Shown: one piece after another, positions 10,360 through 27,002 of the stretch
Layout: every line of letters starts with the position of its first letter
Position numbering within the stretch: the first letter of the stretch is position 1
Origin: Streptomyces sp. NL15-2K
GTDB lineage: Bacteria > Actinomycetota > Actinomycetes > Streptomycetales > Streptomycetaceae
DNA: 64,000 bases
Direction of reading: 5' to 3'
Assembly: GCF_030551255.1 (NCBI RefSeq)
Contig: NZ_CP130630.1
Coordinates: forward strand, 9,051,001-9,115,000
Position numbers and translations under genes: made by a program
The notes under the pieces: model-generated
Told to the model about the DNA's origin: nothing
What the model saw: the letters and a program-made list of their open reading frames with translations, nothing else
The model's database searches: none

Positions 10360-10395
10360 GAAGCGCGCGAGATCGTGGGGGAAGGGCAGGTCACC

Positions 10396-11886
10396 GTGGC
10401 GGGCAGAGCGTTGCCGTCGTTGCCGCAGTACCGCAAGGACGGAGTGACACGACGGCTGTGCGCGTCGGTCCATCTCGACGACGCGTTCGCCCACGAGGTC
10501 GACCGCGAACTCACCGGCGACCGGCTGACCGCGATCGGGCTGTCCCTCGGCATCAACTTCGTGGCCCTCGCCCGGCACGCGCGCGCGGCCGTACGCCGCC
10601 GCGCCGCGCTCGACCGCCAACTGGCCGGGCTGGGCGCCGCGTTGGTGACCGCCGTACTGGTCGCCCTCTGGGGACTCGTCAGCGGCCACGGATCGGTCGC
10701 CCAGGTCGGGATCTACGGCCCGCTGGGCGTCCTCGCGGCCGCGTGGTGGCTGGTCCACCGAGCGGAGTCCAGGGCCCGCGCGACGGCGCAGCACGTGTTC
10801 CGGGACCCGGACAAGGCGGAGACGCTCGCTCCGCCCGTGGAACCGCAGGCGGAGGCCTGGCTGCACGAGCTCAAGCGCGCCAACGTCCTGCCGTACGCCG
10901 ACAGGGCGGCCCTCGACAATCCGTTCGTCGGCAGCGGCGACGAACTCAGGGAAGTCGTCTGGCAGCCCATCGACGTCAGCAAGCCCGCCGAGGCGCCGGG
11001 CGGCGGCAAGCTCCCGATGCGCCCCTTCGACGCGATCGACCTCCACACGTACGTGGCCCGCCAGATGGAGTCCATCTCCGGCCTGGACGGTCTGCGCGCC
11101 AGGAACCGGCTCTACGTCCTCGGCAGCCACGCCTATCTGCTGCCCGAACTGCTGCCCGACCGCACCCGGCGGCCGCGCGCCCAGATCCCCAAGCAGTTCG
11201 TCCAGGCGGGCCTGCAGAACCCCGGCGCCGGCATGCGGACCCACCTGTGCCTGGAGCGGGTCGGCGAGGGCGGGCGGCTCATCGTCTCCATGTACCTGCG
11301 GGCGATCCTCAACCGGCCCAGCCTGACCTGGGAGGTCTCCGTCTACGCGATTCCTCCGCTCGGCGCCCGCTTCTACCGGCTGGACCGGCTGCCGGTGGCC
11401 CGCTTCGACCGCTGGTGGAGCCTCGTCAGGTACGCCACCTCGTCCACCTGGCCCGAACTGCGCGGCGCCCCGCGGCGCATCCGTGCGCGGGCCCGGCAGC
11501 GGCGCGGCTCCGCCAAGTACCTGAGGAGACTGCGCCGGGACATCACCGACCAGCATGTGATCCACGACTGCGGCGCTCCCGGCAGCCTGCGCGAGCGGAT
11601 CGGCGACTGGAGCCAGGCGGGCTACAACGAGCGCACCGACGCGGCGGACTTCCTGAACCGACTCCAGCAGGGCGTGCTCACAGCGACCGAGCGCTTCCTG
11701 AAGGACCACAACGTCGACACCAGCTCCTTCGACAAGGCGCAGCAGATCATCAACACCCAGACCTACAACATCAACAACGTCAACGGCCCGAGCAACATCG
11801 GCCCTCACGGCCAGATCAACAACCCGAACGGCCCACAGGGGAACGGGCCTTCGGGTCCGGGCGGCGGCACCCCGCCCAAGCCCTGA
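10396..11886 (+). CDS. Unknown membrane protein with C-terminal YNINNVNGP motif
   Basis: 496 residues from the GTG at 10396, chosen because GAAGGGCAGG lies 5 nt upstream; a GTG at 10375 would add 7 residues. Two adjacent hydrophobic helices (about residues 80-98 and 104-124) make a hairpin in the membrane. The rest is predicted soluble, with an Arg-rich stretch (about 360-378). Near residue 457 comes TYNINNVNGPSNIGPHGQI and then a Gly/Pro/Asn-rich tail. I do not recognise the family. The same motif opens the next gene's product, so the two probably work together. By position they may belong to the convergent kinase/GTPase block, but this is inference. Confidence 0.7.
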   Translation: MAGRALPSLPQYRKDGVTRRLCASVHLDDAFAHEVDRELTGDRLTAIGLSLGINFVALARHARAAVRRRAALDRQLAGLGAALVTAVLVALWGLVSGHGSVAQVGIYGPLGVLAAAWWLVHRAESRARATAQHVFRDPDKAETLAPPVEPQAEAWLHELKRANVLPYADRAALDNPFVGSGDELREVVWQPIDVSKPAEAPGGGKLPMRPFDAIDLHTYVARQMESISGLDGLRARNRLYVLGSHAYLLPELLPDRTRRPRAQIPKQFVQAGLQNPGAGMRTHLCLERVGEGGRLIVSMYLRAILNRPSLTWEVSVYAIPPLGARFYRLDRLPVARFDRWWSLVRYATSSTWPELRGAPRRIRARARQRRGSAKYLRRLRRDITDQHVIHDCGAPGSLRERIGDWSQAGYNERTDAADFLNRLQQGVLTATERFLKDHNVDTSSFDKAQQIINTQTYNINNVNGPSNIGPHGQINNPNGPQGNGPSGPGGGTPPKP

Positions 11887-11958
11887 CCCAAGCCCTGACC
11901 CGGGCCGGAACAGGAGTCGGCACATGAGCACGTACAACATCAACAACGTCAACGGCCC
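11764..11958 (+). repeat. 26-bp exact direct repeat encoding the YNINNVNGP motif in two adjacent genes
   Basis: Positions 11764-11789 and 11933-11958 are identical over 26 bp and remain similar for about 35 bp more. Each copy encodes YNINNVNGP followed by (S/A)N(I/L)G.HG.I: at the C-terminus of the first protein and the N-terminus of the second. Conservation at the DNA level suggests a recent duplication or gene conversion. Confidence 0.8.
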
Positions 11959-12244
11959 CGCCAACCTCGGCGACCACGGCCGTATCGAGGTCAACAACGG
12001 GATGGACGCGGCCGCCGTCCTGCGCGTGGCCGACCAGCTGGTGGAGCGGCTGCGCGGCGAGAACCCGGCGCTCGTCACTCAGGCGGAGGTCATCCAGGGC
12101 GAGCTGGTGCAGGCCGGGCAGGAGGGGCGGCCCGCCGACCGCGGCCGTATCCGCTCCGCCCTGGAGACCATCAGCATCGGCGTCGCGGCGGGCAGCGGCG
12201 GCCTCGCCCTCGCCCAGGAACTCGGCCGAATCCTCGGCCTGTGA
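11924..12244 (+). CDS. Small protein starting with the YNINNVNGP motif
   Basis: 106 residues; the ATG has an AGGAG site 7 nt upstream. Residues 3-20 (TYNINNVNGPANLGDHGRI) repeat the motif at the end of the preceding protein. An amphipathic helical region (about 28-80) follows, then a small-residue/hydrophobic C-terminal helix (ISIGVAAGSGGLALAQEL) that could insert in a membrane. No known family recognised. It lies 37 bp after the partner gene and ends at a bidirectional terminator shared with the kinase operon. A small effector or adaptor of the neighbouring system is possible but unproven. Confidence 0.7.
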   Translation: MSTYNINNVNGPANLGDHGRIEVNNGMDAAAVLRVADQLVERLRGENPALVTQAEVIQGELVQAGQEGRPADRGRIRSALETISIGVAAGSGGLALAQELGRILGL

Positions 12245-12273: not shown

Positions 12274-12305
12274 GCCTGTGACGCGGGGCGCCCCGCGTCA
12301 CAGGC
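12274..12305. terminator. Perfect 32-bp palindrome, bidirectional terminator
   Basis: Arms 12274-12289 and 12290-12305 are exact reverse complements (16 bp each). It lies between the convergent stops at 12244 (+) and 12315 (-) and can end both transcripts. Confidence 0.85.
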
Positions 12306-12314
12306 CGCCCGGGA

Positions 12315-13652
12315 TCACTTCGCCCGGACCACCGCCCGCACCCCGGCCCCCAGATCCAGCTCCAGGCCTGAGCGCAGCGGAACCGTCTGGCCGGGGTCGA
12401 TCTGCTGCGGGGTGCCGTCGGAGCGGGTGGCCGACCAGGGCTCCTTCGAGCGGTTGGTGATGCCGAAGCGGCCCGGCTTGGAGGGGTGTTCGACCAGCTC
12501 GGCGACCAGGGTCTCGTCGGAGCAGTCGTGCCGGGTCGGCTCCGGAAGGAGATGGTGGGCCTGCACCCGGGCCGCCCGCCGCAGCCGGATGTGGTGCTCC
12601 GCGCGCGGCGGCGGCGTGGTCACCGTCAGCCGCGGCGGCAGCACCAGCTGGGCGCCACAGCCCCAGCAGGCGCGCGCCGGCGGGTTCTCGCCCGGCTCCG
12701 TCATGTTCTGCCGCCCGCAGGAGGCGCACTCGACCACGGAGTCCAGCACCGCCCGCAGCGCGTCACGCCACTCCGACTCGCGCACCCGGGCCGCCGGGTC
12801 GCGCAGGCCGGTCGTGAAGCCGCGCCGGAACAGCTCCCGCAGCGTCCCGGCCGCCGCGTCCCAGGTGGCCAGCACGGTCGTGTGCTCCATCGGGTCGGGC
12901 GCGTTGGAGTCGTCGGCCGGGTCGAAGACGAACAGCGGGCTCTTGCCGTACAGCTTGCGCTCCGCCGCCTCGTCCAGGCAGTGGATGCCCAGCTCCCGCT
13001 TGCCCTTGAGCGGATGATGGTTCATCAGCAGCATGAACAGCAGCACGGCGAGCGAGTGCAGATCGGACTGGGTGCCCGGCCGCGCGCCCGGATCGCCGCG
13101 CACCAGCTCCGGCGCCATGAACTCCATCGTCCCCGAGATGCCGGTGGCGTCCCCCTCCACCACCGCGTTGTCGTTGTCGCACACCAGCACGTCACCGGTG
13201 TCCGGGTCGAAGAAGATGTTGCCCCAGGAGATGTCCCGGTAGGCGATCCCGCGCGAGTGCAGCGCCTGGTACGCCTCCACCGTGTACAGGCACGCCGTCA
13301 GCAACGCTCTCGTGCTGGTGCGCAGTTGGCGCCGGAACAGCGCGGGCAGTCCCTTGAAGCGCTGCGGACGCAGCCCCATCAGGTACCCGAACGAACCGCG
13401 GTACGCCGGCACGTACGCCTGTGGCCACAGGAACCGGTCGTCATCGAAGTCCCGGGACACCAGCTCCCGTACGATCGCCTCCTGGTCCGGCGTCGCGCAC
13501 GTCGGGTAGTACCACTTGAGGGCCTTCTCCCCGCTCGGTGTCCTGACCCGGTACACCTCGCCCTGGCCGCCCGCGCCCAGCATGTCGACGACCTCGACCT
13601 CGTCGCCGTTCTCCGCGGTCAGGCGCATACCGCTGTCGAGCATGCCGCTCAT
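12315..13652 (-). CDS. Ser/Thr protein kinase-like protein with zinc ribbon and C-terminal beta domain
   Basis: 445 residues. Kinase domain (about 18-300): glycine loop LGAGGQGEVY (25-34), Lys in ALKWY (46), catalytic loop YRDISWGN with D140, metal-binding D159 within DND rather than DFG, and APE at 180-182. The catalytic His of HRD is Tyr. A zinc ribbon follows (CASC near 310, CWGC near 331), then a beta-rich tail (about 390-445) resembling a small FHA-like sandwich. Last gene of the GTPase operon; its ATG directly abuts the PP2C stop. It probably phosphorylates other operon products, opposed by the PP2C phosphatase. Confidence 0.88.
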   Translation of the reverse strand: MSGMLDSGMRLTAENGDEVEVVDMLGAGGQGEVYRVRTPSGEKALKWYYPTCATPDQEAIVRELVSRDFDDDRFLWPQAYVPAYRGSFGYLMGLRPQRFKGLPALFRRQLRTSTRALLTACLYTVEAYQALHSRGIAYRDISWGNIFFDPDTGDVLVCDNDNAVVEGDATGISGTMEFMAPELVRGDPGARPGTQSDLHSLAVLLFMLLMNHHPLKGKRELGIHCLDEAAERKLYGKSPLFVFDPADDSNAPDPMEHTTVLATWDAAAGTLRELFRRGFTTGLRDPAARVRESEWRDALRAVLDSVVECASCGRQNMTEPGENPPARACWGCGAQLVLPPRLTVTTPPPRAEHHIRLRRAARVQAHHLLPEPTRHDCSDETLVAELVEHPSKPGRFGITNRSKEPWSATRSDGTPQQIDPGQTVPLRSGLELDLGAGVRAVVRAK

Positions 13653-14558
13653 CTACGTCTCCGTCTTCCGTTCCGTTTCCATGGGTTCCGTGGGGTCCAT
13701 GGGGAGGGTGTCCCGTACCGCGTGCGTGCGGCGCAGCGCGGCCGTCAGGGTCGTGTCGTCCCCGGAGTACCGCGAGGCCTGCCGCAGCCAGCCGGGCAGC
13801 GCGGCCCGTACCTCCGCACTGCCCTCCGCGGTCAGGCGGCCGTCGAGACCCGTCACGAACTCCCGGTAGCCGTCGGCCGACGCGAAGCTCTTCGACAGCC
13901 CGTCCGTCGACAGCACCACCAGCCGCGGCGTGCGTGCCTCGTCGAACACCGGCGCCCAGTGCATCCGCATCGCCCGCCAGGCCTCACGGCCGCACAGGGA
14001 CTCCGTCTCGTCGCCCAGGTCCTCCTGGGCGGGGGCCAGCGGCCGGCGCAGCGCGCCGTCGTGCTCGACCACCGCCAGGTCCCCGTCGCCGATCTGCCAG
14101 GCCACGAACAGCCACGGCGTGAGCACGGCACCGATCAGCGTCGTGCCGTACAGCACCAGCTTCTCGTCGCACGAAGGCTCCCGCGCCCCGTCGTCGGCCA
14201 CCGGGCGGTGCCGCGTCCAGTGACCCAGCGCCGCCTCCCGCCAGTCGTGCACCAGGGCGCGCGGGAAGCCGTCCCGGGCATACGCCATCAGCCGTGCCAG
14301 CCGCCCGGGTTCATGGCAGTCGCGGGCCGCCCGGCCGAAGGAGGCCGCGAGGTTCGTGAAGCGGTCCACGGCGAACCGGGCACCGAGCTCGCTGCGCGCG
14401 TGCGCGGCCGAGCCGTGCCCGTCGGCCACCGCCAGGACGAGCGGGTCGTCGCCGGAACCGGCGCCCTCGCAGGCGTACCAGTCCTGGTTGCACCGCTTGC
14501 CGACGCCCTGGACGCTGTCGCCCAGCGTCTCCCAACGTCGCACCCCGAGCGTCACCAC
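13653..14558 (-). CDS. PP2C-family protein phosphatase
   Basis: About 301 residues. PP2C metal-binding motifs are intact: RCNQDW near residue 22, ADGHGSA near 45, GTTLIGAV and GDGDLAVV in the middle, STDGLSKS near 218 and GDDTTL near 268. It is expected to be a Mn/Mg-dependent Ser/Thr phosphatase reversing the neighbouring kinase. The start is either the GTG at 14558 or the one at 14555, which overlaps the vWA stop as GTGA; coupling favours the latter. There is no gap to the kinase gene downstream. Confidence 0.88.
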   Translation of the reverse strand: MVTLGVRRWETLGDSVQGVGKRCNQDWYACEGAGSGDDPLVLAVADGHGSAAHARSELGARFAVDRFTNLAASFGRAARDCHEPGRLARLMAYARDGFPRALVHDWREAALGHWTRHRPVADDGAREPSCDEKLVLYGTTLIGAVLTPWLFVAWQIGDGDLAVVEHDGALRRPLAPAQEDLGDETESLCGREAWRAMRMHWAPVFDEARTPRLVVLSTDGLSKSFASADGYREFVTGLDGRLTAEGSAEVRAALPGWLRQASRYSGDDTTLTAALRRTHAVRDTLPMDPTEPMETERKTET

Positions 14559-15247
14559 ACGTCGTCGTCATCGTCGTCGTCCAGGACCGGCGGCGCGTAC
14601 GGCTGCTTCACCATCGTGACGGCCGGGTCCGCCGAGCCCGCCACCGGCTGCGAGGCCGCCTTCACCGCCGCCGTGGACGCCCACCGGATGGCCGCCGCCA
14701 GCTGTTTGGGGCTGTTGGCGTCCAGCGGCTGGAGCTCGGGGTTGCCGAGGAACTCCTGCAGCACGCCACGGTCCGCGTCCGCGCCGATCGCGATGGCGAC
14801 CCGCACCGCCTTGCGGCCCCACGGCGTCGCGTCGATCGCCTTCAGGCCCGCCTTCCAGTCGTCCGTGGGCACGCCGTCCGACACCAGCGCCAGCACCGGC
14901 TTCAGCGCCCGCTCCGGCATCGGCGGGCTCTGCAGCTCCCGCGAGACCAGGTTCAGCGCCTCGCCGAGGTTGGTCATACCGTCCACCTCGACGTCCTGCC
15001 AGGTGAAGTCGTCGACCGGGACCGGCGTCTGGTGGTGCCACCGGGCCGTGGTGGAGAAGGTGATGGTGCGCAGCAGCAGTTGCGCCGCGGGGTTGTCGTG
15101 CGCCACCGACCGCATCTCCGGAACGGCTTCCCGGATGGCGTAGTTGAGCCGGGCGATCTTCTCGCCCTGCATCGAGTACGAGCAGTCGAGGAGCCAGATG
15201 AAGTGAACCGGCCGGTTGGCCATGGGCCCGCCGGGAATGTCGCTCAC
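14552..15247 (-). CDS. vWA-domain protein with intact MIDAS (TerY-like)
   Basis: 231 residues from a GTG with a GAAAGGA site 7 nt upstream. The von Willebrand A domain carries a complete metal-ion site: DCSYSMQG (DxSxS) near residue 21, the Thr of DGMTNLGEAL and the Asp of SDGVPTDDW. It ends with an acidic tail of seven consecutive Asp. The protein resembles TerY-type cytoplasmic vWA proteins that act as protein-interaction hubs in tellurite-resistance-like and conflict systems. In the operon it lies between the tiny membrane protein and the phosphatase. Confidence 0.88.
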   Translation of the reverse strand: MSDIPGGPMANRPVHFIWLLDCSYSMQGEKIARLNYAIREAVPEMRSVAHDNPAAQLLLRTITFSTTARWHHQTPVPVDDFTWQDVEVDGMTNLGEALNLVSRELQSPPMPERALKPVLALVSDGVPTDDWKAGLKAIDATPWGRKAVRVAIAIGADADRGVLQEFLGNPELQPLDANSPKQLAAAIRWASTAAVKAASQPVAGSADPAVTMVKQPYAPPVLDDDDDDDVW

Positions 15248-15280
15248 TCGGTGTCCTTTCGTGGAGTGGTGAAGCGGTCT

Positions 15281-15400
15281 TTACGGCAGCAGCAGCCATA
15301 CGGCGTACGCCGCGGCGCCCGTCGTCAGGACGAGGGAGGCGACGAACAGGCCCGCCGCCATCCGCCGTCCGCGTCCGATGGCTGGTGTCACCTTGGTCAT
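15281..15400 (-). CDS. 39-residue single-helix membrane protein of the GTPase operon
   Basis: Short basic N-terminus (TKVTPAIGRGRR) followed by one transmembrane helix (MAAGLFVASLVLTTGAAAYA) and a hydrophobic end (VWLLLP). The ATG overlaps the stop of the membrane GTPase gene as ATGA, which is the main reason to believe the gene. Such small components are easily missed in annotation; it may anchor or gate the membrane GTPase. No family recognised. Confidence 0.65.
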   Translation of the reverse strand: MTKVTPAIGRGRRMAAGLFVASLVLTTGAAAYAVWLLLP

Positions 15401-17037
15401 GCCGGGCTCTTCTCCCGTTCGGTGTTCGCGCGCAGTCTGATCCTGCGCTCCTTGCCGCCGGCGCCGCCCGGCCCGAGCAGCGCACCGGTCCCGAGCCCCG
15501 AGGCCGCGAGCAGCCACAGCACCGGCTCGGCTGCCCGGCGCTGCTCGCTCTCCAGCGGGCCGGTCCCGGTGGCCGCACGGGCACTCACGGCCCAGTAACG
15601 CGCCGCACGGAAGTCGTGGCCGAGGGCCCGGACCAGCCCGCCGAGCCCGATCTCCGCCAGCCAGCCGTCGATCCGCGCACCGGGCACGGGCAGCGAGACC
15701 AACTGGTCGAGGACGTCCCGCTTGGTGACGACGGCGGCCACGGACAGCCGTCCGCGCCGGCCGGTCAGGGCCGCGAGCTCGCCCGTCAGGCGCTGGTACG
15801 TCTCCCACGGCCCCTGCGCCGAGGGGCGCGCCGCCCCGGCCCGCGCGGCGTCGTCGGCGCCGAGCCGGCCCCGCACCTTGGGATCGGCCAGCACGTCGGC
15901 GACGAGCACGACGCCGTCCGCGTGCGCGAGGTACTGCTGGGCCCGCACCCGCTCGGCGTCGCTCACCGACTCGCCCATCGGGTCGTACAGATACAGCAGC
16001 CTGCGCCGCCGCCCGCGGCTCACGGTCAGCATCAGGGCGCGCGGCTGCCCGCCGGTCGTCGCGTGCGCCCAACCGGTGCTGTTCAGCTCCTGGCTGAGGT
16101 CGACGTGCGCGCGGCGGTCGTCGGCGGAGGCGTACTCGACCGTGAGGTCGCCGCGCCGCGCCCAGGCGTGCAGCCCCTCCACCATGGCCGCCATCAGCAT
16201 CGTCTTGCCGGACGAGGTGCCGCCGACGAGCGGCGCGTGCACGACGCGCGTGGTGCCGACCGTCTCCGGCAGGTACCGGTCGCAGTGCGGGCACAGGGCC
16301 GTCAGCCGCTCCCGCCCCGCGAGCCGGGTCGCAGGCAGCCGGTGCCCACACGTGCAGACGTGCCACAGCACGCCGTACCGGCCGGGCCGCAACTCACCGT
16401 GCGGCGCCCGGCAGTTCGGGCAACGATGCACGGCCAGCGGGACGGGCCGGTAGCAGCCGGGGTAGGGGCACTTGACGCGGATGCCCCGGGCCAGCGCCCA
16501 GCCGCGCTCCACACCCCGCAACACCGGCACGGCCGCCGCGCAGCCCAGCCACACCAGGGCGAGCAGCAGCGCGAAGACGGCCAGTACGGCGCCGAGCAGG
16601 ACGGTGGCGACCACGGCGGCCACGAACGCGCCCACGACCGTGCCGGGCGCCACGAACACCATCATGAGCAAGCGGGTGGCCGGCATCTCGCCGGGCTTGC
16701 CGGAGGGGCGCCGGCCGCGGAACAGGTTCCGGGTGATCCGCTCCAGCCACGGGTCGGAGAACGCCGTCCAGATCACCCGCATCCCGTAGCCCGCGGCCGA
16801 CACCGCGTCCACGCGCAACTGCCGCCACCAGTACCCGAGATGAGCGGGCTCGCCCGGTCCGACGAGCGGTACGCGGTGGTCGGCGCGGCCGGTCTGCCAG
16901 GGCCCGAGCCCGCGCCAGACGGCGCTCCCACCGATCCACAGGAACTGCCACAGCGCGCTGCCCAGACACACCCCGGCGGCGACGAGCGCGGTCCAGCCGA
17001 ACACCGGGAACACCGCTGTCATGACGTTGACGCTCAT
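15397..17037 (-). CDS. Membrane-anchored GTPase (DO-GTPase2-like) with zinc-ribbon cluster
   Basis: 546 residues from the ATG at 17037, which overlaps the GAP1 stop (ATGA). An N-terminal hydrophobic segment (about 8-35) and a long hydrophobic double span (about 115-165) anchor it. A Cys-rich middle (KCPYPGC, HRCPNC, HVCTCG, ALCPHC) looks like two or three treble-clef or zinc-ribbon units. Then comes a GTPase domain: P-loop GGTSSGKT near 268-276, switch region LYDPMGES and base-recognition VVTKRD. The order suggests a double-GTPase-2 type NTPase at the membrane. GTP binding is inferred from motifs only. Confidence 0.8.
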   Translation of the reverse strand: MSVNVMTAVFPVFGWTALVAAGVCLGSALWQFLWIGGSAVWRGLGPWQTGRADHRVPLVGPGEPAHLGYWWRQLRVDAVSAAGYGMRVIWTAFSDPWLERITRNLFRGRRPSGKPGEMPATRLLMMVFVAPGTVVGAFVAAVVATVLLGAVLAVFALLLALVWLGCAAAVPVLRGVERGWALARGIRVKCPYPGCYRPVPLAVHRCPNCRAPHGELRPGRYGVLWHVCTCGHRLPATRLAGRERLTALCPHCDRYLPETVGTTRVVHAPLVGGTSSGKTMLMAAMVEGLHAWARRGDLTVEYASADDRRAHVDLSQELNSTGWAHATTGGQPRALMLTVSRGRRRRLLYLYDPMGESVSDAERVRAQQYLAHADGVVLVADVLADPKVRGRLGADDAARAGAARPSAQGPWETYQRLTGELAALTGRRGRLSVAAVVTKRDVLDQLVSLPVPGARIDGWLAEIGLGGLVRALGHDFRAARYWAVSARAATGTGPLESEQRRAAEPVLWLLAASGLGTGALLGPGGAGGKERRIRLRANTEREKSPA

Positions 17038-19667
17038 CTGTGGCCTCCCCCGGACGGCGGCTCGATGTCCCCGGGCCATCCGGCGGCCGGCTCGGCGCGC
17101 CGGCCGCGCCCGGACAGCCGTCCCGCGAGCCGCCCGAGCGCGCCGGGACGGTTCCAGGAACGCCACGCGTCGAGCTTGCCCCGCCCCGCGCGGCCCAGCG
17201 CCGCCTCGATCTCGGCGTGGTCCTCGGCGGGCAGTACCCGCACGACCGGCCGCAGCACCTTGGTCAGCAGGGTGGTGCGCGTGGCGTCCCAGTCGGGGTG
17301 GGTGCCGGGGTAGGCGCTCCAGTCGCAGAAGCGGGCGGCGACGTACGACGGCACGGTCCGCAGCCGGTCGCCCACGCGGTCCGAGCGCCCGACGCGCTCG
17401 TACGCCGCGAGCAGGCCGGGCTCGGCCGACCTGGCCAGGGAGTAGACCTCGTTCTCGGGAGCCGTCCCCTCCAACAGCCGCCGGGCGAGCGCGCCGTGGA
17501 CCCGCTCGGTCACCGTGTCCGGAACGGGTTCGGTCGCCGAGTCCCGCAGCGCCAGCACCCGGTCGACCCACTGCTCGCCCTCGCCCTCGGTGCCGAGCAG
17601 GCCCGCGAACTCCAGCAGGAGCAGGGCCGAACGCTGCCCGGGCCGCAGTTCCGTACTGAAGCAGCGCAGCAGGTCGGTGGCGAGGACCGGGACGCCGGGG
17701 TCGTCCGCGGGCGCGGCGAGGGCGGCCTCGATCAGCAGGTCCCGGGTGCCGGCCGCGCGGTGGGTGTCGGAACCCAGCTGGTTCAGCAGCAGGCTCGCCT
17801 CCTGCCCGGACGGCAGCGCGCCGGCCCACACCAGCCCGAGCGCGGTGCGCAACACGGCCGTGTCGGCGTGCGGGGAGACCCCCGCGGTCCGCAGGACGCC
17901 GTGGAAGCGCGCGAGCCGGTCGCCCGGGGCGTCGGAGGGCGTCGCCGTGACGCACATGCGCAGGTGCGGGAAGCCGGGCTGCAGTGTGACGGGCAGTTCC
18001 GACCCGGCCAGCTTCCGGGCGGCGACCACCGGATCGGCGGCGGCCAGCGCGTCCAGAGCACCGAAGAGCGCGATACGCAGGGCGGGGTGCCCGTGCACGG
18101 CGTCGAGGAGAGCGGGCGGGCAGGGGGCGGCGATGCCGTCTTCGCGGCCTGCCACGCCGGAGGCCCCGTCCGAGTCCTCGCCCACCAGCTCCCGCGCCAG
18201 CCGTCCGGCCAGGTCCGGGAGCAGGTCCTGGCAGTCGATGTCCAGCAGGTCGGCGACGTGCAGCAGGGCGAGCGGCCGTCCGGCGGCCGGTTCGTGCGGG
18301 TCCGCGAGGCCGGCGCGCAGCGCGGGTGCCAGCTCACGGGCGAGATCGGCGCGCGCCTGCGGGGTGAGCGACCCGGCGCCGAGCGTGGGCACGGGCCCGC
18401 GGCCGAGCACGGCCGAGGCCAGCACGCGGGCGGCGAGCGGAGCGGACACGGCCGTCGGCACCTGCCCCTCGAGTCGCGCCAACAGCGCGCCCAGAGCGGT
18501 CTGTTCGTCGTCCGGGGGAGGGGGCGCGGGAGTGTCGACGGCCGTGGCCGACGGGGCCCGTGCCACCGAGCCCGGGTGCGGGACGGCATGATGCGGTACG
18601 TCATCGTGCGCGGCCTCGGCACCAGGACGCCGTACGTCAGCACGCTCGAGCCCGGCACCGAGCCGCCGTACGCTCCCGACACCCCCCGCACAGAGCCCCT
18701 CCACCAGCGCGCCCAGCGTCGCGTCGGGCAGTGTGTCCGCGTGGTCGGCCGCCCAGCGTGCGGCGACCGCGCGGGCGTCGGTGCGCAGGGCGATGCCCGA
18801 GGTGAGCGCGGCCACGGCGAGGGGGCCGAGGTCCTCGGCGTCGCGGAACAGCTCGGGCCGCCCGGCACACCAGATCCGGGCGCACACGTCCGCCCAGACG
18901 TCCGTGACCGGCTCGGACGGCGCATGCCCGGTGCAGTCGTGCACCCGGTAGCGGTGGTCGTGGGCGACCGACTCCGACGACGGCAGCGCGCCGATGATCT
19001 GCTGGCGGGCCTGCTGCGGGCGGCGCGTGTACGTGGTGAAGGTCAGCCGGTGCGCCTGTTCGCGCGGCAGCACCGTACAGGCGAGCGCGATCCACTGGGC
19101 CACGTCGGCGCTGTCGTGCTCCACGATCACGAGCTGTCCGGTGTCCGGGTCCGCCGCGAGAGCCCGCAGATCGGCGAAGAAGGCCGCGAGCCGATCCGCC
19201 CGGGACACCGCGAACGCGACCAGCCCCTCCTTGCGGAGCAGGCCGGACGGCTCGAAGCGGTCGACCGGCTCGGGCCGGCCGCCCGGGGGAGTGGCGTCGG
19301 CCCAGCGTGGTGACTCCCACGCGGTGATGGGCAGGGCACCGTCCGGCAGCCGCGTCCCGGCGGGCAGATGGACGGCGTGCGCGTGGAAGTTGCCCCAACG
19401 CCCGCTGTAGTCGGCCCCGGTGTACACGCTGCGGCTCAGCAGCCGCCCTCCGTCGGCGAGTTCGCTGAAGCTGAAGGCCTTGGGGAAGTTCTTGAGCTGT
19501 TCGGCGTCGGGCCGGGCCGGGAAGTCACGCGGTGGCTCGTACCCGATCACCTGTTCCGCCTCCCGCAGCAGCCCCTGCGGGACGCCCGCGCTGACCGCGG
19601 TGAACCGGAAGCCCGACCCGTCGGGTCCGGGCGGAGCCGAGGTGTAGTGCAGCTGGGCGAGGGTCAC
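17034..19667 (-). CDS. GTPase-associated protein 1 (GAP1) homologue
   Basis: 877 residues from the GTG at 19667, which overlaps the upstream GTPase stop as GTGA. The N-terminal part (about 1-140: QLHYTSAPPGPDGSGFRF, then GYEPPRDFP and YTGADYSGRWGNFHAHAVHL) matches the GAP1-N2 type domain named in computational studies of NTP-dependent conflict systems. The remainder is long and alpha-helical, with a Pro/Ala-rich linker near 375-400. GAP1 proteins are always found beside TRAFAC-type GTPases and are presumed partners; activity is not known. The very long frame upstream of the chosen start is a shadow of the next gene. Confidence 0.78.
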   Translation of the reverse strand: MTLAQLHYTSAPPGPDGSGFRFTAVSAGVPQGLLREAEQVIGYEPPRDFPARPDAEQLKNFPKAFSFSELADGGRLLSRSVYTGADYSGRWGNFHAHAVHLPAGTRLPDGALPITAWESPRWADATPPGGRPEPVDRFEPSGLLRKEGLVAFAVSRADRLAAFFADLRALAADPDTGQLVIVEHDSADVAQWIALACTVLPREQAHRLTFTTYTRRPQQARQQIIGALPSSESVAHDHRYRVHDCTGHAPSEPVTDVWADVCARIWCAGRPELFRDAEDLGPLAVAALTSGIALRTDARAVAARWAADHADTLPDATLGALVEGLCAGGVGSVRRLGAGLERADVRRPGAEAAHDDVPHHAVPHPGSVARAPSATAVDTPAPPPPDDEQTALGALLARLEGQVPTAVSAPLAARVLASAVLGRGPVPTLGAGSLTPQARADLARELAPALRAGLADPHEPAAGRPLALLHVADLLDIDCQDLLPDLAGRLARELVGEDSDGASGVAGREDGIAAPCPPALLDAVHGHPALRIALFGALDALAAADPVVAARKLAGSELPVTLQPGFPHLRMCVTATPSDAPGDRLARFHGVLRTAGVSPHADTAVLRTALGLVWAGALPSGQEASLLLNQLGSDTHRAAGTRDLLIEAALAAPADDPGVPVLATDLLRCFSTELRPGQRSALLLLEFAGLLGTEGEGEQWVDRVLALRDSATEPVPDTVTERVHGALARRLLEGTAPENEVYSLARSAEPGLLAAYERVGRSDRVGDRLRTVPSYVAARFCDWSAYPGTHPDWDATRTTLLTKVLRPVVRVLPAEDHAEIEAALGRAGRGKLDAWRSWNRPGALGRLAGRLSGRGRRAEPAAGWPGDIEPPSGGGHR

Positions 19668-20920
19668 TTGACTCGTCCCTTCCCCGTGGCGCGGACCGGC
19701 AGCAGCCCGCGCTGGGCGAGCAGCCACAGCAGCGGATCCTCCACCCGCACCGGCTGCGGCCCCGACTTGGGTACGTCCGCGGGGGCGTCCGCGGGCGGTG
19801 GCGCCCCGAGCGCCGAGAGGCCGAACAGCGACAACCGGGCGAAGTCCAGCTCGAGTTGGCGCAGCAGCGCGCCCGAGTCCCAGTCCGTCATCAGGGAGCG
19901 GATCTCCTCGTGCACGGCGAGCCGGTCGTCCTCGTCGAAGGCGCCGTCCGTGTGCGGGGCGTTGTGCAGCAGCGGCGAGTGCGGGTCGAGCAGGGACCCC
20001 AGCATGTCCGTCTTGGTGATGGCCACCGCGATCGGCGTGGCGACCCGGCCCCGCGAACCGCCCTTGCCGTGGGCGCGCAGCTGTACGGCCAGGTCGGCGG
20101 CGATCTGCTGCGGAGGCGTCTCCACCACGGGCAGCTCGGGCCCGTCGGTGACGGGCAACCGGTCGCGCACGGAGCCGAGTTGCAGCGGATCGACCAGCAG
20201 GACGATGCCGTCGGCGGCGCTGAGATAACGGGTGTAGCGGTCCATGGCCTCGGCGCCGGCGAGATCCTCGCCGGCCGCGTCGAAGAACACCAGCGTGGTG
20301 TGCCGGGTGCCGCTGCCCAGTCTGCCGCGGCGGGGCACGCTGAGCCGGTACAGGAGCGGGTCGTTGAAGCCGAGGGCGGCCGGCCGGGTGGCGTCCGGCA
20401 GTCGCAGCCGCTCGTACAGGTCCTCGGCCATCTCCTTGTCCCGCTGCTGCGTGCTCTGTCCCATCGCCGCCAGGGAGGCTCCGTAGGCCTGACCGACGCG
20501 CTGGTTCAACTCGTTGACCAGGACGGAGACATAGGTGCTCTTGCCCGAGGCCTTCGGCCCGACCAGGGCGATGATGCGGCTGTCCTGGTCGCAGTAGTCG
20601 CTCGGCAGGTCGTTGTGGCAGGACCCGCACACCCGGACGGTCGTGCCCACCCCGCACCCGGGGCACGGCACGCTGCTGCCGGCCGAGCCGCCGCGCAGCC
20701 CGGACGCGAGCGCGCCCACGCCCCGCGCCGGGGTGAAGACGGGCCCGCGCATCCGCATCGCGGGCGGCACGCTCGGCCCCATGAACCCCGCCCAGACGTC
20801 GTCGCGTTCGGGGCCGCAGGGCGAGCCGCCGCGGACGCCGTTCGGGCTCATCAGACAGCGGTAGGGCAGCTTGGCCGCCGACGCGCGGGCGAAGCAGTAG
20901 GGACAGATGACGGTCGTCAT
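19664..20920 (-). CDS. TRAFAC-clade GTPase with N-terminal zinc ribbon
   Basis: 418 residues from the ATG at 20920. The N-terminus has Cys pairs (CPYCFARA at 6-9; CPGCG then CGSCH near 88-103) that form a split zinc ribbon. The GTPase core follows: P-loop GPKASGKST near 119-127, a switch-II-like FFDAAGEDL, a LLVDPLQL strand and an ITKTDML base-specificity motif. A Pro-rich segment lies before the C-terminal end. It lies 2 bp after the beta-sandwich gene and overlaps GAP1 by 4 bp, so the GTPase and GAP1 are probably made in step and form a complex. Confidence 0.85.
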   Translation of the reverse strand: MTTVICPYCFARASAAKLPYRCLMSPNGVRGGSPCGPERDDVWAGFMGPSVPPAMRMRGPVFTPARGVGALASGLRGGSAGSSVPCPGCGVGTTVRVCGSCHNDLPSDYCDQDSRIIALVGPKASGKSTYVSVLVNELNQRVGQAYGASLAAMGQSTQQRDKEMAEDLYERLRLPDATRPAALGFNDPLLYRLSVPRRGRLGSGTRHTTLVFFDAAGEDLAGAEAMDRYTRYLSAADGIVLLVDPLQLGSVRDRLPVTDGPELPVVETPPQQIAADLAVQLRAHGKGGSRGRVATPIAVAITKTDMLGSLLDPHSPLLHNAPHTDGAFDEDDRLAVHEEIRSLMTDWDSGALLRQLELDFARLSLFGLSALGAPPPADAPADVPKSGPQPVRVEDPLLWLLAQRGLLPVRATGKGRVK

Positions 20921-20922
20921 GC

Positions 20923-23187
20923 TCAGCGCACCACCAGGGTCGCGGGGGAGGGTTCTTCGAGTCGCACCGAGGCCGCCCGCTCGCCCAGCAGGAAGCCGCG
21001 CAGCGTGTACGGCGCCGGGCAGGGCGCGGGCGGCAGCTCCAGCTCGACCGTGCCGTGGCGGGTGAGATCGGTACCGGGGACGCGCAGCACGGTAGTGCCA
21101 TCGGCCGCGTTCCGGGGCCGCAGGGTGCCGCTCCGGGCGACGCACACGAACTCGGGCGCGTCCGGCGGGGCGCCGCCCGGCGCGGAGAGCGTGACCCGCA
21201 GCCGGGCGGCCCGGCCCCGACCGAGCAACCGGCGTGGCGCGCGGACCAGTTGATAGCCGATGGCCGCATCGGGCGGCAGCACCACCTCGGCGACGGGAGC
21301 CGGTACGACGACGGCCCCGGGGTCCCGGGGCGCGGCCACGACGCGGACACGGACGCCCCCGGGGCCGACCGGCAACCGCAGTCCGCCTCGGCGGTAGGCG
21401 TGGGCGGTCACGGTTCGGGTGCGGCCGGCGGGCTCGGTGACCCTCTGGGTGCCGGCCCGCGTAGCCCCGCCCGGCTCCGCCGGCTCCTCCGTCAGGTCTG
21501 CCCAGCTGACGGTGAGATGACCGGCCCCGTCCGGCCAGTCGAGGCTGACCCGGGCCTGTCCGTCCGGCAGCCGTCGGGCGGCCAGGCCCCTCACGTGCGC
21601 GAGCGCCTCGACGTCGACGACGGGTCCGGCCAGCGCGCGCTCGCCGAGCACGGCGACGGCGGCGACCCGGGCGTACGCGCCGGGCGGCGGGCACAATGCC
21701 CGGACGTTGTCAGGCTTGTCCGGCCAGGGCAGCCGCGGCGGCAGGTCCGACGTGCGCAGCTCGGTGCCGGGCCGAGGAGCCTCGCCGGGCCATTCCACCA
21801 GGCGGACCTCCGCATCCCGGCCACCGGTCCAGTCGAAGCACACGCCCGTATCCTCGGGGCGTGCGGTGAGCGTACGGACCGGATCGGGCCAGGGGTGCAC
21901 CGTACGGGTGACGCGGATGCCCGGCGAGTAGACCAGGTCTCCGCCAGGAACCCGGTATCCGCACGCGATCCGGAACGCGTGGACGCCGGTCGGCAAGCCG
22001 GTCGCGGTGAACCCCTCGGGACGGGAGCCCAGCGGCTCGGCCGCACCGGAGGACGGCCCCGTGTGCTCGACCGCCACCTCGACGGCACCCGGCGGCCGCC
22101 GCCACGAGCAGTCGACGCGCTCCGGCCCGTCCGTCAGGCTCACCTCGGTCACCTCCGGGGCGACCAGCACCCGGTGCGACACGAGCGGCGGCCCGTCCAC
22201 GCGTCCGTCCCGCAAGGGCAGGGCGGCATAGCGGACCGTCGTGCCGAGGGCGGCCTCCTCGTCCCGGGCCGTGCCGCCCCGCGCGGAGACCTCGCGCACC
22301 CGGTGCGCACCCTGTTCGGTGCGGTACAGGCACAACAGCCGCCAGTCGCGGTCCGCGACCCCCTGTGGGTCCCAGGCCAACTCGACGCGATCGGCGGCGA
22401 GTTCGGCGTGCAGAGGAGCCCGTCGGCCACCGCGCGGCCGGTGCAGGCGGACCAGTCCGCCCAGCGCCCGCCGGTCGTCCGCGGCCTCCCGCAGCGCACG
22501 CAGGAACTGAGCACTCGCCGCCTCCGTGTCCCCGCGTTCCTCGGCGCCGCGGGCCGCGAGCAGGGCCGCGTCCACCGCGGCCAACCGAGCGGTCAGCGCC
22601 GTACGCACCGCCTCCAGGCCCGCGTCACCGCCGCCCGTCGGCAGTCGCTCCAGCAGGCCGCGCACCCGGTGCAGCCGATCACGCTCCCAGGCGTCGGCGA
22701 CGGATTCCGCGGCACCGCGCTGCCGCGGGGTGAGGACGGGCCGCAGTCGAGCCGCCGCCACCATCCCGGCCACCTCATCGGCGTGAATCCCCAACTCGGC
22801 GGCAACCCGGGGCCGTTCCGCCTCCGGACGGTCCTGCAACAGGCCGATCAGCTGATACAGCACCACCCGGCGCAGCGCCGACGGATCGCGCCGGTGCAGC
22901 CCGGCCAGCAACCCCGCGAGCCCGGCCGTCGCAGTAGCCGCACGAGCGAGGTCGTCCAGCAAAGGGCCGTCCACCCGCCGCGCACCGCGCGGCCCGGACG
23001 GCACGTACAGCCCGTCGAGAACCCGCAGCCCGCCACCCGAACCGGTCAGCGCCTCACCGAGGTGCCGTAATCCGGCCGCCTGCTGGGCGGCGGTGAGCTC
23101 GGCGTACGCGGGGACGAGGGGGCTCAGCGGCAGCCCGGTGAGCGCCTGCGGCAGCCCCAGGTGATGCCCGAACTCCCGACCCGCCAC
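20923..23187 (-). CDS. Large protein with helical N-terminus and several FN3-like beta-sandwich repeats
   Basis: About 754 residues from the GTG at 23187, which has a GGGGGAGAG site 8 nt upstream; an ATG at 23226 would add an Arg-rich 13-residue extension with weaker support. Residues 1-260 are Leu/Ala/Arg-rich and helical. From about 270 there are repeated strand-rich units (for example ADRVELAWDPQGV, PERVDCSWRRPPGAVEV, DTGVCFDWTGGRDAEVRL, GQARVSLDWPDGAGHLTVSW) spaced about 85-95 residues apart, like fibronectin type III domains. It is the first gene of the GTPase operon. It could be a scaffold or ligand sensor; no function is claimed. Confidence 0.7.
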   Translation of the reverse strand: MAGREFGHHLGLPQALTGLPLSPLVPAYAELTAAQQAAGLRHLGEALTGSGGGLRVLDGLYVPSGPRGARRVDGPLLDDLARAATATAGLAGLLAGLHRRDPSALRRVVLYQLIGLLQDRPEAERPRVAAELGIHADEVAGMVAAARLRPVLTPRQRGAAESVADAWERDRLHRVRGLLERLPTGGGDAGLEAVRTALTARLAAVDAALLAARGAEERGDTEAASAQFLRALREAADDRRALGGLVRLHRPRGGRRAPLHAELAADRVELAWDPQGVADRDWRLLCLYRTEQGAHRVREVSARGGTARDEEAALGTTVRYAALPLRDGRVDGPPLVSHRVLVAPEVTEVSLTDGPERVDCSWRRPPGAVEVAVEHTGPSSGAAEPLGSRPEGFTATGLPTGVHAFRIACGYRVPGGDLVYSPGIRVTRTVHPWPDPVRTLTARPEDTGVCFDWTGGRDAEVRLVEWPGEAPRPGTELRTSDLPPRLPWPDKPDNVRALCPPPGAYARVAAVAVLGERALAGPVVDVEALAHVRGLAARRLPDGQARVSLDWPDGAGHLTVSWADLTEEPAEPGGATRAGTQRVTEPAGRTRTVTAHAYRRGGLRLPVGPGGVRVRVVAAPRDPGAVVVPAPVAEVVLPPDAAIGYQLVRAPRRLLGRGRAARLRVTLSAPGGAPPDAPEFVCVARSGTLRPRNAADGTTVLRVPGTDLTRHGTVELELPPAPCPAPYTLRGFLLGERAASVRLEEPSPATLVVR

Positions 23188-23301: not shown

Positions 23302-24051
23302 TCAGGCACTGACCGCGGCCGCCATCGGCATCCGCGCCGCGTCGTACCGCTCCAGCAGCACCCGCGCCACCTCCGGCGCCGGCCCGAGCACCGCGGCCAG
23401 TACGTCCGCCTCGGCGGCGCCCCGCGCGATGCGGTCGGGAAGAAACCCCGGGGCGAGGACGTACGGCGCGACCGCGACCTTCGAGCAGCCCAGCGCCCGA
23501 AGCGACCGCACCGCGTCCTCGGTGCGGGGAAGGGATGCGGAGGCGAACGCAGGCCGCACGGCGCACCAACCGGTGTGCCGCCACTCCCGCGCGATTTCAG
23601 CGATCACTGCGATCGCCTCCGGGTCGGTGGACCCCGCCGAGGCCAGCACGACCCCGGTCGAGGACTTGTCGGCGGGCGTCAACCCCGCCTCGTACAGACG
23701 CCGCTCCAGAGCGGTCAGCAGCAGCGGCGACGGGCCGAGCACCTCCGCCTGCCGGATCCGCAGCCGCGACGGCGCGTCCCGCAGTACGGCGGGGATGTCC
23801 GCCTTCGCGTGGAAGGCGCGCGTCAGCAACAGCGGCAGGGCTACGACGTCCCGCACACCCTCCGCCGCCAGGGCCTCCAGCACGCCCCGCACGGAAGGGA
23901 CGTTGAAGTCCAGGAAGCCGGTCTCCACCCGCAGGCCGGGCCGCAGCCGCCGTACGCGACGCACCAGGGCGTGCACGGTAGCGGCATGCCGCGGATCACG
24001 GCTGCCGTGGGCGACCACCACGAGGACGGGTTGAACCGGCTTCCGATACAT
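23302..24051 (-). CDS. Sirohydrochlorin chelatase (CbiX/SirB family)
   Basis: 249 residues with two tandem CbiX-like halves. VLVVVAHGSRDPRHAATV near the N-terminus contains the catalytic His, and PLLLTRAFHAKADIP contains the second; the C-terminal half repeats the fold (VAPYVLAPGFLPDRI). It inserts Fe2+ into sirohydrochlorin to give siroheme, the cofactor of the sulfite reductase encoded at the other end of this locus. It lies 6 bp after ssuC and is the last gene of the sulfur operon. Confidence 0.87.
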   Translation of the reverse strand: MYRKPVQPVLVVVAHGSRDPRHAATVHALVRRVRRLRPGLRVETGFLDFNVPSVRGVLEALAAEGVRDVVALPLLLTRAFHAKADIPAVLRDAPSRLRIRQAEVLGPSPLLLTALERRLYEAGLTPADKSSTGVVLASAGSTDPEAIAVIAEIAREWRHTGWCAVRPAFASASLPRTEDAVRSLRALGCSKVAVAPYVLAPGFLPDRIARGAAEADVLAAVLGPAPEVARVLLERYDAARMPMAAAVSA

Positions 24052-24057
24052 GGGACT

Positions 24058-24966
24058 TCAGCTCTTCACCAGCAGACCGCGGCTGCGCAGCACCCACCGC
24101 TCCAGCGGGCTGAAGATCAGCAGGTCGATGGCGATGCCGACGAACAGGATGAGCAGGATGGCCTCGAACACCATGGCCATGTCGCTGGCGTTGCGGCCGT
24201 TCTCCAGCAGCTGGCCGAGGCCGACGCCGAGGTCGGGGAAGGACGCGATGATCTCGGCCGCCATCAGCGACCGCCAGGAGAACGCCCAGCCCTGCTTCAG
24301 ACCGGCCACATAGCCGGGCAGCGCGGCCGGCAGCGTGATGAACCAGGTGCCCTTCAGTCCCGTCGCCCCCATCGTGCGGCCCGCGCGCAGGAACAGCGGC
24401 GACACCTGGTCGACGCCGGACACCAGGCCGTTGGCGATGGAGGGCACGGCGCCGAGCAGGATCACCGCGTACATCATCGAGTTGTTCAGGCCCAGCCAGA
24501 GCACGGCCGGCGGCACCCAGGCCACCGACGGCAGCGACTGCAGGCCGGACAGGATCGGGCCGATGGCCGCACGCACGAACTTCACCCGGGCCACCAGCAG
24601 ACCCAGCGGGGTGCCGATGACCAGCGCGAACAGGAAGCCCAGCAGACCGCGCGAGACGCTGGTCCAGATGTAGCCGAGCAGCTCGCCCTGCAGCCACGCC
24701 TGGTGCACGACGTTCCACACGTCGCCCGGTGAGGCCATCTTCGTCGGGTCGTCGACGACGTGGTAGGTGATCTGCCAGCCCACCAGGACCACCGCGATCG
24801 CGATGATCGGCGGCATGATCTTGTTGACGAAGGTCTGCCGGAAGGGCGTACGGCCGGTGACCGAGACCTCCAGGGCGTCCAGACCCGCCTCCAGGCCGTC
24901 CAGCCCGTACCCCTGGGCGTTGCCCCGGGGCTTTCCCTCGGTGCTCTTGGTCTCAGTGCTGGCCAT
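24058..24966 (-). CDS. ssuC: Sulfonate/alkanesulfonate ABC transporter permease
   Basis: 302 residues with about six membrane helices. The binding-protein-dependent transport signature is visible (the EAA-like loop GATGLKGTWFITLPAALPGYVAGLK, quoted in part, near 200-220). The start at 24966 lies 14 bp inside ssuB, pointing to coupled translation. With SsuB and SsuA it forms a typical importer of aliphatic sulfonates or taurine. No desulfonating monooxygenase (SsuD) is in the window, so the transported compound could equally be inorganic sulfate or another sulfur source. Confidence 0.85.
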   Translation of the reverse strand: MASTETKSTEGKPRGNAQGYGLDGLEAGLDALEVSVTGRTPFRQTFVNKIMPPIIAIAVVLVGWQITYHVVDDPTKMASPGDVWNVVHQAWLQGELLGYIWTSVSRGLLGFLFALVIGTPLGLLVARVKFVRAAIGPILSGLQSLPSVAWVPPAVLWLGLNNSMMYAVILLGAVPSIANGLVSGVDQVSPLFLRAGRTMGATGLKGTWFITLPAALPGYVAGLKQGWAFSWRSLMAAEIIASFPDLGVGLGQLLENGRNASDMAMVFEAILLILFVGIAIDLLIFSPLERWVLRSRGLLVKS

Positions 24967-25741
24967 GGCGGCGGATCTCCCCACGCAGTACTTCGGTGAT
25001 CTCGACGGACAGCTCCGCGACGGGGGCGTCCTCGATGCGGCGCGGCTGCGCAATGTCCACGGTCCACTCGCGCGCGATCCGGCCCGGCCGGGAGGACAGC
25101 AGGACGACCCGCTGGGCGAGCCGTACCGCCTCGCGCACGTTGTGCGTGACGAAGAGGACGGAGACCCCGGTCTCCGCCCAGATCCGGGTGATCTCGTCGT
25201 GCAGCACGTCCCGCGTGATGGCGTCCAGCGCGGCGAACGGCTCGTCCATCAGCAGCAGCTTGCTCTCCTGCGCGAGCGCGCGGGCCAGTGCGACGCGCTG
25301 GCGCATACCGCCCGACAGCTCGTGCACCCGCTTGCCGTACGCGCCCTTCAGCCGGACGAGTTCGAGCAGCTCCTCCGCCTTCTCGCGCCGCTCGTTCTTC
25401 GGAACTCCCCGGAGCCTGAGGGCGAGTTCGATGTTCTTGCCCGCGGTCAGCCACGGGAAGAGGGCGTGCTCCTGGAACATCAGCGCCGGGCGGCCGTCCG
25501 TCGTGATGCCGCCCGCGCTGGGCTCGTCGAGCCCCGCCACCAGGTTCAGCAGCGTGGACTTGCCGCAGCCCGAGGCACCCAAGAGGGTGACGAACTCGCC
25601 CGGAGTGACATCGAGGTTGATGTCGTCCAGCACGAGCTGCTGCCCGGCGGGGCCCGCGAACGACTTCGAGACGTGCTCGATGCGGGCGGCGTACTCGGCG
25701 GTCTCGGTACCGTCGGCGGCCTTGGCGAGGGTCGTGGCCAT
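24953..25741 (-). CDS. ssuB: Sulfonate ABC transporter ATP-binding protein
   Basis: 262 residues. Walker A GASGCGKST, Q-loop MFQEHALFPWL, signature LSGGMRQR, Walker B LLLMDEPFAALD and H-loop VTHNVREAV are all intact. The ATG at 25741 was chosen over an upstream one because AGGAGGTGA lies 5-6 nt before it, an excellent ribosome site. It energises the SsuC permease. Confidence 0.9.
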   Translation of the reverse strand: MATTLAKAADGTETAEYAARIEHVSKSFAGPAGQQLVLDDINLDVTPGEFVTLLGASGCGKSTLLNLVAGLDEPSAGGITTDGRPALMFQEHALFPWLTAGKNIELALRLRGVPKNERREKAEELLELVRLKGAYGKRVHELSGGMRQRVALARALAQESKLLLMDEPFAALDAITRDVLHDEITRIWAETGVSVLFVTHNVREAVRLAQRVVLLSSRPGRIAREWTVDIAQPRRIEDAPVAELSVEITEVLRGEIRRHGQH

Positions 25742-25778
25742 GGTCGTCACCTCCTGGGAACTCATCGGGGTCGTTCGA

Positions 25779-26888: not shown

Positions 26889-27002
26889 GGGAGGTGTTCC
26901 TCTCGTTGGCCCGGCGGTCACGGTCTCAGGTCGTGGCCGGGAGCTCGGCAGGTTTTCGTCTACGGCGGTGGGGGGTGCGGGCGCGCGAGCGGTGCGCGTA
27001 CG

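Follow-up and report, generated by a model that had tools for sequence, protein, structure and literature searches.

A GAP1-N2/DO-GTPase operon of Streptomyces sp. NL15-2K with a TerY-P-like triad and a co-occurring convergent gene pair

Gene content of the locus

The subject of this report is a gene cluster of Streptomyces sp. NL15-2K, located in a stretch of 64,000 nucleotides (contig NZ_CP130630.1, positions 9,051,001 to 9,115,000), hereafter called the window. The cluster comprises a minus-strand operon encoding an FN3-like protein, two DO-GTPases, GAP1 (GTPase-associated protein 1, not a GTPase-activating protein; PMC7159879), a 39-aa protein, a vWA protein, a PP2C phosphatase and a Ser/Thr kinase, together with a convergent pair of plus-strand genes, d2 and d1 (Table 1). 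The eight operon genes, which a first-pass annotation had called from the sequence alone, are intact open frames between 12315 and 23187 with 0 internal stops, and the tight packing described there is real: 4-bp overlaps occur at the GTPase 1/GAP1, GAP1/GTPase 2 and GTPase 2/39-aa gene junctions, the vWA and PP2C genes overlap by 7 bp, the PP2C and kinase genes abut, and gaps of 2 nt and 33 nt separate FN3-like/GTPase 1 and 39-aa gene/vWA, respectively. That the products are made in a fixed ratio, as was also claimed, does not follow from this layout. While the eight genes stand, the limits drawn around them were too narrow, since the two plus-strand genes recur with the operon; this convergent pair had been missed. 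The palindrome between the 3' ends of the kinase gene and d1 is a possible shared terminator of both, and a consensus scan at 12274-12305 found no T-run terminator.

Table 1. Features of the locus, in window coordinates.
Feature	Position	Strand	Basis or remark
FN3-like protein, 754 aa	20923..23187	-	GTG start; open frame; putative sensor/scaffold
GTPase 1 (DO-GTPase2), 418 aa	19664..20920	-	Pfam DO-GTPase2 39.5 bits
GAP1, 877 aa: GAP1-N2, GAP1-M, GAP1-C	17034..19667	-	Pfam
GTPase 2 (DO-GTPase2), 546 aa	15397..17037	-	Pfam 52.1 bits; hydrophobic segments
39-aa protein, one hydrophobic segment (14-32)	15281..15400	-	open frame; hydropathy
TerY-like vWA protein, 231 aa, intact MIDAS	14552..15247	-	alignment; ter-operon vWA matches on plasmids
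PP2C phosphatase, 301 aa	13653..14558	-	Pfam PP2C_2 110.6 bits
Ser/Thr kinase, zinc ribbon and beta-rich tail, 445 aa	12315..13652	-	Pfam 58.1 bits; alignment
Perfect 32-nt palindrome between convergent 3' ends of kinase and d1	12274..12305	.	candidate shared terminator
d1, 106 aa, N-terminal motif TYNINNVNGPANLGDHGRIEVNN	11924..12244	+	recurrence with operon; motif co-varies with d2
d2, predicted membrane protein, 503 aa, C-terminal motif TYNINNVNGPSNIGPHGQINN	10375..11886	+	recurrence with operon

The family assignments made at first pass were borne out by Pfam, in which no GTPase or GAP1 protein was placed in an unrelated family. GAP1 matches the GAP1-N2, GAP1-M and GAP1-C models at 153.9, 85.4 and 399 bits, both GTPases exceed the DO-GTPase2 cut-off of 27 bits, and the PP2C_2 and Pkinase matches also lie above their cut-offs. 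The VWA match, at 21.8 bits, is slightly below its cut-off of 23.8; the metal ion-dependent adhesion site (MIDAS) is intact as first described, with D21, S23, S25, T92 and D124 showing no variation among 11 aligned sequences. In the kinase, K46, D140, N145 and D159 do not vary among 39 aligned sequences, in which the zinc-ribbon cysteines C309, C312 and C329 are likewise invariant and C332 is present in at least 90%. Both kinase and PP2C are predicted to be catalytically active. While the vWA and kinase residues were taken from alignments, the GTPase and PP2C motifs were read by eye: GTPase 1 has two CxxC clusters ahead of its P-loop, and GTPase 2 has Cys clusters in addition to three N-terminal hydrophobic segments seen by hydropathy. 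The structure model of the kinase has a predicted local distance difference test (pLDDT) value of 91, and the Foldseek matches listed for it were kinases, so that an FHA-like fold for its tail is conjecture. Two proteins (P0229 and P0231, one recorded under S. cacaoi) fuse PP2C and kinase in a single chain.

The FN3-like label, given at first pass to a scaffold, is supported indirectly. The 754-aa protein itself has no Pfam match, and the precomputed annotation of 4 of 120 listed homologues carries PF25833, a model called 'SaeA second Fn3-like domain' in one source; a relative at another locus, L042, gives a weak fn3 match (E 0.17). The idea that the 39-aa protein is the detached C-terminal transmembrane helix of GTPase 2 was dropped, as no GTPase 2 examined has such a helix by hydropathy.

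Relation to described GAP1-N2 systems

The first-pass annotation had also pointed to multi-component NTPase systems predicted in computational surveys, and the locus does match one such family. Kaur et al. (2020; PMC7159879) described in silico GAP1-N2 systems in which DO-GTPases are accompanied by an FNIII protein; their third (kinase) theme, reported for 10% of GAP1-N2 neighbourhoods and for actinobacteria only, adds a kinase with a zinc ribbon and a beta-rich domain, a PP2C and a standalone vWA. Judged by its sequence, the operon is a GAP1-N2/DO-GTPase system of this third theme (theme 3 below), with which it shares GAP1-N2/M/C, paired zinc-ribbon DO-GTPases, one of them with transmembrane segments, a PP2C, a standalone vWA, a kinase that has both a zinc ribbon and a beta-rich tail and, putatively, an FNIII-type component. 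The layout, first taken to be uncharacterised, has therefore already been described in silico; no experimental work on GAP1-N2/DO-GTPase systems was found in the literature searched, where subscription journals are thinly covered. In the available part of the third-theme description the triad is not tied to TerY, a name with 0 occurrences in the main text of that paper.

Co-conservation across genomes

In a neighbourhood survey of 150 Streptomyces genomes, which served as the main sample, the genes proved to be co-conserved. The full operon, in identical gene order, is present at 13 further loci (14 including the window), which argues that the arrangement is not due to chance; a relative of the 39-aa gene was found by phmmer at 11 of these 13. 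With GTPase 1 as query, scores over 600 bits came from exactly these 14 genomes. S. davaonensis JCM 4913 also appears to have the operon, its GAP1 being BN159_2235 and its kinase BN159_2240. GAP1-N2 occurs at 46 places in 44 genomes, of which 14 carry the full operon, one is a reduced locus (L034), five show GTPase-GAP1-GTPase in other settings (L017, L019, L021, L022 and L023, with an FN3 relative detected only at the last two) and 26 have no DO-GTPase in view; at least L016, L020, L052 and L053 among these 26 lie on short or cut contigs, where neighbours may have been missed. Outside Streptomyces, FN3, GTPase, GAP1 and GTPase stand together at nine of ten GAP1 loci examined (L069, L070, L072-L075 and L079-L081, not L071). 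A class-level sample of 394 genomes gave GAP1-C in 28 and a vWA of the window type (E <= 1e-10) in 10. At L056 (6678-12715, genome G051), relatives of FN3, GTPase 1 and GTPase 2 stand without an intervening GAP1, the GAP1-N2 of that genome being elsewhere on the contig.

Pairwise distances among seven operon components, computed over 12 loci (L009 omitted, its GAP1 match being on a second copy; L065-L067 not included), correlate with r of 0.76-0.96. The FN3-like protein evolves fastest, with a mean identity to the window of 56%, the lowest of the seven, and the vWA is the most conserved, with 90%, the highest.

A role in developmental signalling, in which the kinase, phosphatase and GTPases would time sporulation or hyphal events, could appeal to the report by Kaur et al. 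(PMC7159879) that multicellular organisms are enriched in GAP1-N2 systems. It is nevertheless very unlikely, as 136 of the 150 Streptomyces genomes lack the operon and yet develop, and the locus is eroded at L034. The unicellular Corynebacterium glutamicum, included as a control genome, has both GAP1-N2 and DO-GTPase2 matches.

The TerY-P-like triad

The first-pass annotation had the families of the kinase, phosphatase and vWA right and overlooked their likeness to TerY-P, a module described as vWA, PP2C and kinase-zinc ribbon (PMC11090510) and reported to be antiphage (PMC11090510; PMC7699616). The window vWA matches 2279 of 72,556 plasmid records (E <= 1e-3), every one below 60% identity, and among them ter-operon examples reach 31.9-34.9% identity with E values of 5e-18 to 1e-13. 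Three annotated enterobacterial tellurite-type operons have the order vWA, TerD, vWA, TerY-C protein, PP2C, kinase. The operon kinase aligns with the ter kinase at E 3e-30 across 379 columns, zinc ribbon included, and the PP2C reaches only E 2e-4 against the ter PP2C. By sequence comparison, homology to TerY-P is thus firm for the vWA and the kinase and weak for the PP2C. Common to both are the TerY-like vWA, the PP2C and the kinase with C-terminal zinc ribbon, in the order vWA-PP2C-kinase; in contrast to TerY-P, the present triad is embedded in a GAP1/DO-GTPase operon, and the TerD and further vWA genes that separate the matched vWA from PP2C in ter operons are not interposed here. The proteins scanned within or next to the operon include none that is TerD-like.

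This kinship could also indicate a Ter-type response to envelope or metal stress and not an antiviral function; the vWA site and the zinc ribbon would then let the triad sense metal or damage, with the membrane as the place where the GTPases act. The nearest annotated triads do lie in tellurite operons, DO-GTPases are tied to membrane stress in one passing mention in the available part of a PSP survey, and inheritance of the operon appears mostly vertical. We hold this explanation to be rather doubtful, given that no TerD-like gene accompanies the operon in the proteins scanned, that the candidate sensor evolves fast and that presence in only 14 of 150 genomes would be odd for a general stress system.

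Related triads were seen in other settings. An unannotated kinase-vWA-PP2C triad lies on a plasmid of the gammaproteobacterium Methylomonas (CP157007.1; L058, 8581-11484); its vWA is 55% identical to that of the window, and the kinase match takes in the tail. L062 (589-14901) has a TerY-P-like triad whose neighbours are a 1444-aa ATPase of the FtsK/SpoIIIE type, an FHA-trypsin protein and two small genes that encode roughly 90-100 aa each. At L045 (9325-18646), the genes that come after vWA and kinase encode a helicase (AAA_11/AAA_12), a protein of 496 aa and one that is AAA_5-like (Pfam), an arrangement that recalls CoCoNuT operons; L044 and L046-L048 resemble it by gene sizes.

The convergent d2-d1 pair

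Of the 16 full loci other than the window, tblastn found the gene d1 at 15 and phmmer (40 bits) at the sixteenth, L010, and it recurs although the remaining flanks vary between full loci. A strong d2 homologue (at least 417 bits) is present in 16 of the 150 genomes, namely in all 14 with the full operon and in 2 of the 136 others (G001, on a 5-kb triad contig, L051, and G038, with a GTPase-less GAP1, L033); weaker relatives (<= 121 bits) occur in 23 more, bringing any match to 39 of 150. At L078, which has a GTPase-less GAP1, d2 adjoins and no d1 was found. One or two hydrophobic segments were predicted in 19 of 20 d2 versions (13 versions have two, 6 have one, that of the window among them, and the truncated version of L065 has none). 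An alternative gene before d1, window 10458-11927, was discarded as an R/P-rich, out-of-frame reading, d2 being the conserved frame. The pair goes unmentioned in the available text of Kaur et al. and, strictly co-occurring with the theme-3 operon, is an addition to that description; the 'System 4' of the same authors (EACC1 and caspase) was rejected as its identity, since it has one transmembrane helix and a caspase partner.

The C-terminus of d2 and the N-terminus of d1 carry one shared motif, and unusual versions appear in both members of a pair, as with GGQNQFG (L013), GNAFG (L010) and AG-IGDNGT (L014). Over 18 pairs (L065, with its truncated d2, and L078 were omitted), the mean motif score is 73.7 within loci and 52.1 across loci, with a permutation p of 2e-5, the floor of 50,000 draws; when partners were limited to the own locus and the four nearest relatives, the comparison mean was 62.1, again with p 2e-5. 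The own partner comes out on top for only 10 of the 18 d2 motifs, because motifs are almost the same among near relatives. The weak d2 relatives behave alike: among 14 places examined, a small downstream gene was present at 11 and none was called at L085, L092 and L095, and the 11 paralogous units (L082-L084, L086-L091, L093 and L094) consist of a d2-like protein and a partner of 123-144 aa, whose motifs differ between units and match within them (GNQAIG/GNQAIG, SSVASG/SAVASG, AGRNISI/AGRDVRI, TGDNARA/TGDNSTA). These 11 pairs score 68.4 within versus 40.1 across (p 2e-5), with 4 of 11 ranking their own partner first, as several are near-identical. Five dissimilar paralogous pairs gave 66.4 versus 33.5 (p 0.0085, 4 of 5 first), and the same five combined with five theme-3 pairs gave 74.0 versus 31.4 (p 2e-5, 9 of 10 first).

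One may ask whether d2 and d1 form an independent two-gene system that merely adjoins the operon, its matched motifs stemming from an old duplication or gene conversion. Related pairs indeed occur elsewhere without the operon, the pair lies on the opposite strand, and d1 distances correlate least with those of the operon (r 0.51-0.71). A strong d2 homologue, however, is found in each of the 14 theme-3 genomes while other flanks differ, d2-operon distances correlate at 0.82-0.93, and the motif DNA of d2 and d1 is 68-84% identical (the same codon is used at 176 of 230 identical residues), which makes recent gene conversion unlikely; older conversion may lie behind the matched motifs. On balance, an independent pair is unlikely.

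In organisation, and only in organisation, the pair is BASS-like. BASS (bacterial amyloid-signalling) motifs are described at neighbouring C- and N-termini beside NLR genes (PMC8086366; PMC12261475), and here too a short motif at the C-terminus of one protein has its counterpart at the N-terminus of the protein encoded next to it. Unlike BASS pairs, d1 and d2 carry no Pfam family over cut-off, NLR included, and no significant BASS3 similarity: 102 of 1000 shuffles equalled or bettered the BASS3 peptide, and 29 of 1000 an archaeal BASS3-like peptide. Homology to BASS3/RHIM, suggested by eye, is not claimed.

GAP1 fold and GTPase-less variants

For the predicted structure of GAP1 (pLDDT 83.8), structure comparison suggests that residues 1-280 are DENN/TagF-like and the remainder ARM/HEAT-like; below DENN and TagF, VIA-align lists mainly helical solenoids. 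A PDB sequence search gave a single chance match (E 6.4). On this model, GAP1 is possibly a DENN-type exchange factor for the DO-GTPases, although no sequence similarity was found to DENN-type Rab exchange factors or to TagF of the type VI secretion system, and its partners, unlike those of the Rab exchange factors, are DO-GTPases. If the DENN-like fold holds, an exchange-factor fold of eukaryotic membrane traffic would stand alongside paired GTPases in bacteria.

GAP1 also occurs frequently without GTPases, which could not be seen from a single sequence. The GAP1-N2 loci with no DO-GTPase in view include L015, L016, L018, L024-L033 and L035-L041. Genome-wide, the DO-GTPase2 search gave 0 matches above cut-off in 24 genomes (20 with such loci, and G133, G093, G081 and G366), with one sub-threshold match in G127 and at least two matches in each of six control genomes. 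GAP1 would thus not depend on these GTPases everywhere, unless such genomes hold a GTPase that may be too divergent for the model. At the reduced locus L034 (5483-12514, genome G133), FN3, GAP1, vWA and kinase remain open, and what look like the first parts of GTPase 1 and PP2C are left as remnants. A kinase recorded under S. daghestanicus (P0160) begins in the same remnant-derived way, which is evidence against an error of assembly. Compared with the window, dN/dS at L034 is 0.42 for the vWA and 0.39 for the kinase (0.13 and 0.21 between window and L006), pointing to relaxed, not neutral, constraint. L042 (7118-16974) and L064 (7285-17007) combine GAP1 and the triad with an FN3 relative on the opposite strand and no GTPases; the N2 model, unlike those for M and C, has no match in the L042 GAP1. 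Together with L043, a 4.9-kb contig carrying the triad, they form a group with two additional genes of long helical or membrane-like sequence. Such natural variants offer a ready dissection of which components need which.

Proposed mode of action

We tentatively favour, as possible rather than probable, a reading in which the theme-3 locus is a membrane-associated, phospho-regulated system that acts against invaders or responds to damage, has several checks and ends in a d1-to-d2 output. Drawn from the anatomy, the order of action would begin with the binding of a trigger by the fast-evolving FN3-like protein. GAP1, apparently an extended solenoid that starts with a DENN/TagF-like part, would relay this to both DO-GTPases, of which one is soluble and the other sits in the membrane, perhaps by acting as their exchange factor. 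The triad, with the vWA as adaptor beside PP2C and zinc-ribbon kinase, would set a reversible phosphorylation threshold, and the convergent pair would provide the output, with d1 coupling to the membrane protein d2 by way of their matched terminal motifs.

This reading is suggested by a domain content equal to that of the published theme, by a vWA and a kinase homologous to those of the ter operon and in the same order, TerY-P being reported as antiphage, and by an FN3 that diverges most beside a vWA that diverges least. It draws as well on the distribution of strong d2, on d1/d2 motifs that match within loci beyond chance, against nearest relatives and in the 11 paralogous pairs too, and on the DENN/TagF-like GAP1 front. 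It would link a predicted conflict family of multicellular bacteria to a module with reported antiphage activity and add a candidate output arm.

Several results weigh against it. PADLOC has no model for the operon core and returned a generic kinase and a weak P-loop match only; since it is equally silent on the ter-operon vWA and PP2C, its silence says little. No other defence genes were found among the near neighbours scanned. Distances of five operon components correlate with those of rpoB (r 0.62-0.73), which suggests mostly vertical inheritance with patchy retention, unlike typical mobile defence. L034 does without both GTPases, the 39-aa gene, PP2C and d1/d2. Similarity of d1/d2 to published amyloid motifs is at chance level with profile scores that are not significant, and Foldseek with the GAP1 model gave no match at E 0.001, fold scores being moderate.

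A bolder version appears distinctly unlikely. In it, theme-3 loci would be ten-gene assemblies in which GAP1 acts as a DENN-type exchange factor for the paired GTPases, TerY-P as a threshold switch, and d1 passes a prion-like homotypic signal to d2 by templated assembly, as an NLR-free pair within a wider Streptomyces family of d2/d1 pairs, each with its own motif.

Flanking genes

Upstream of the operon (window 23302-26921) lie genes for CbiX, an ABC ATPase and an NMT1-like protein. This flank was not found at the remaining full loci, where some stretches end early; L006 has only CbiX of the set, and all three genes are shared by L002, L005, L008, L034 and L065.

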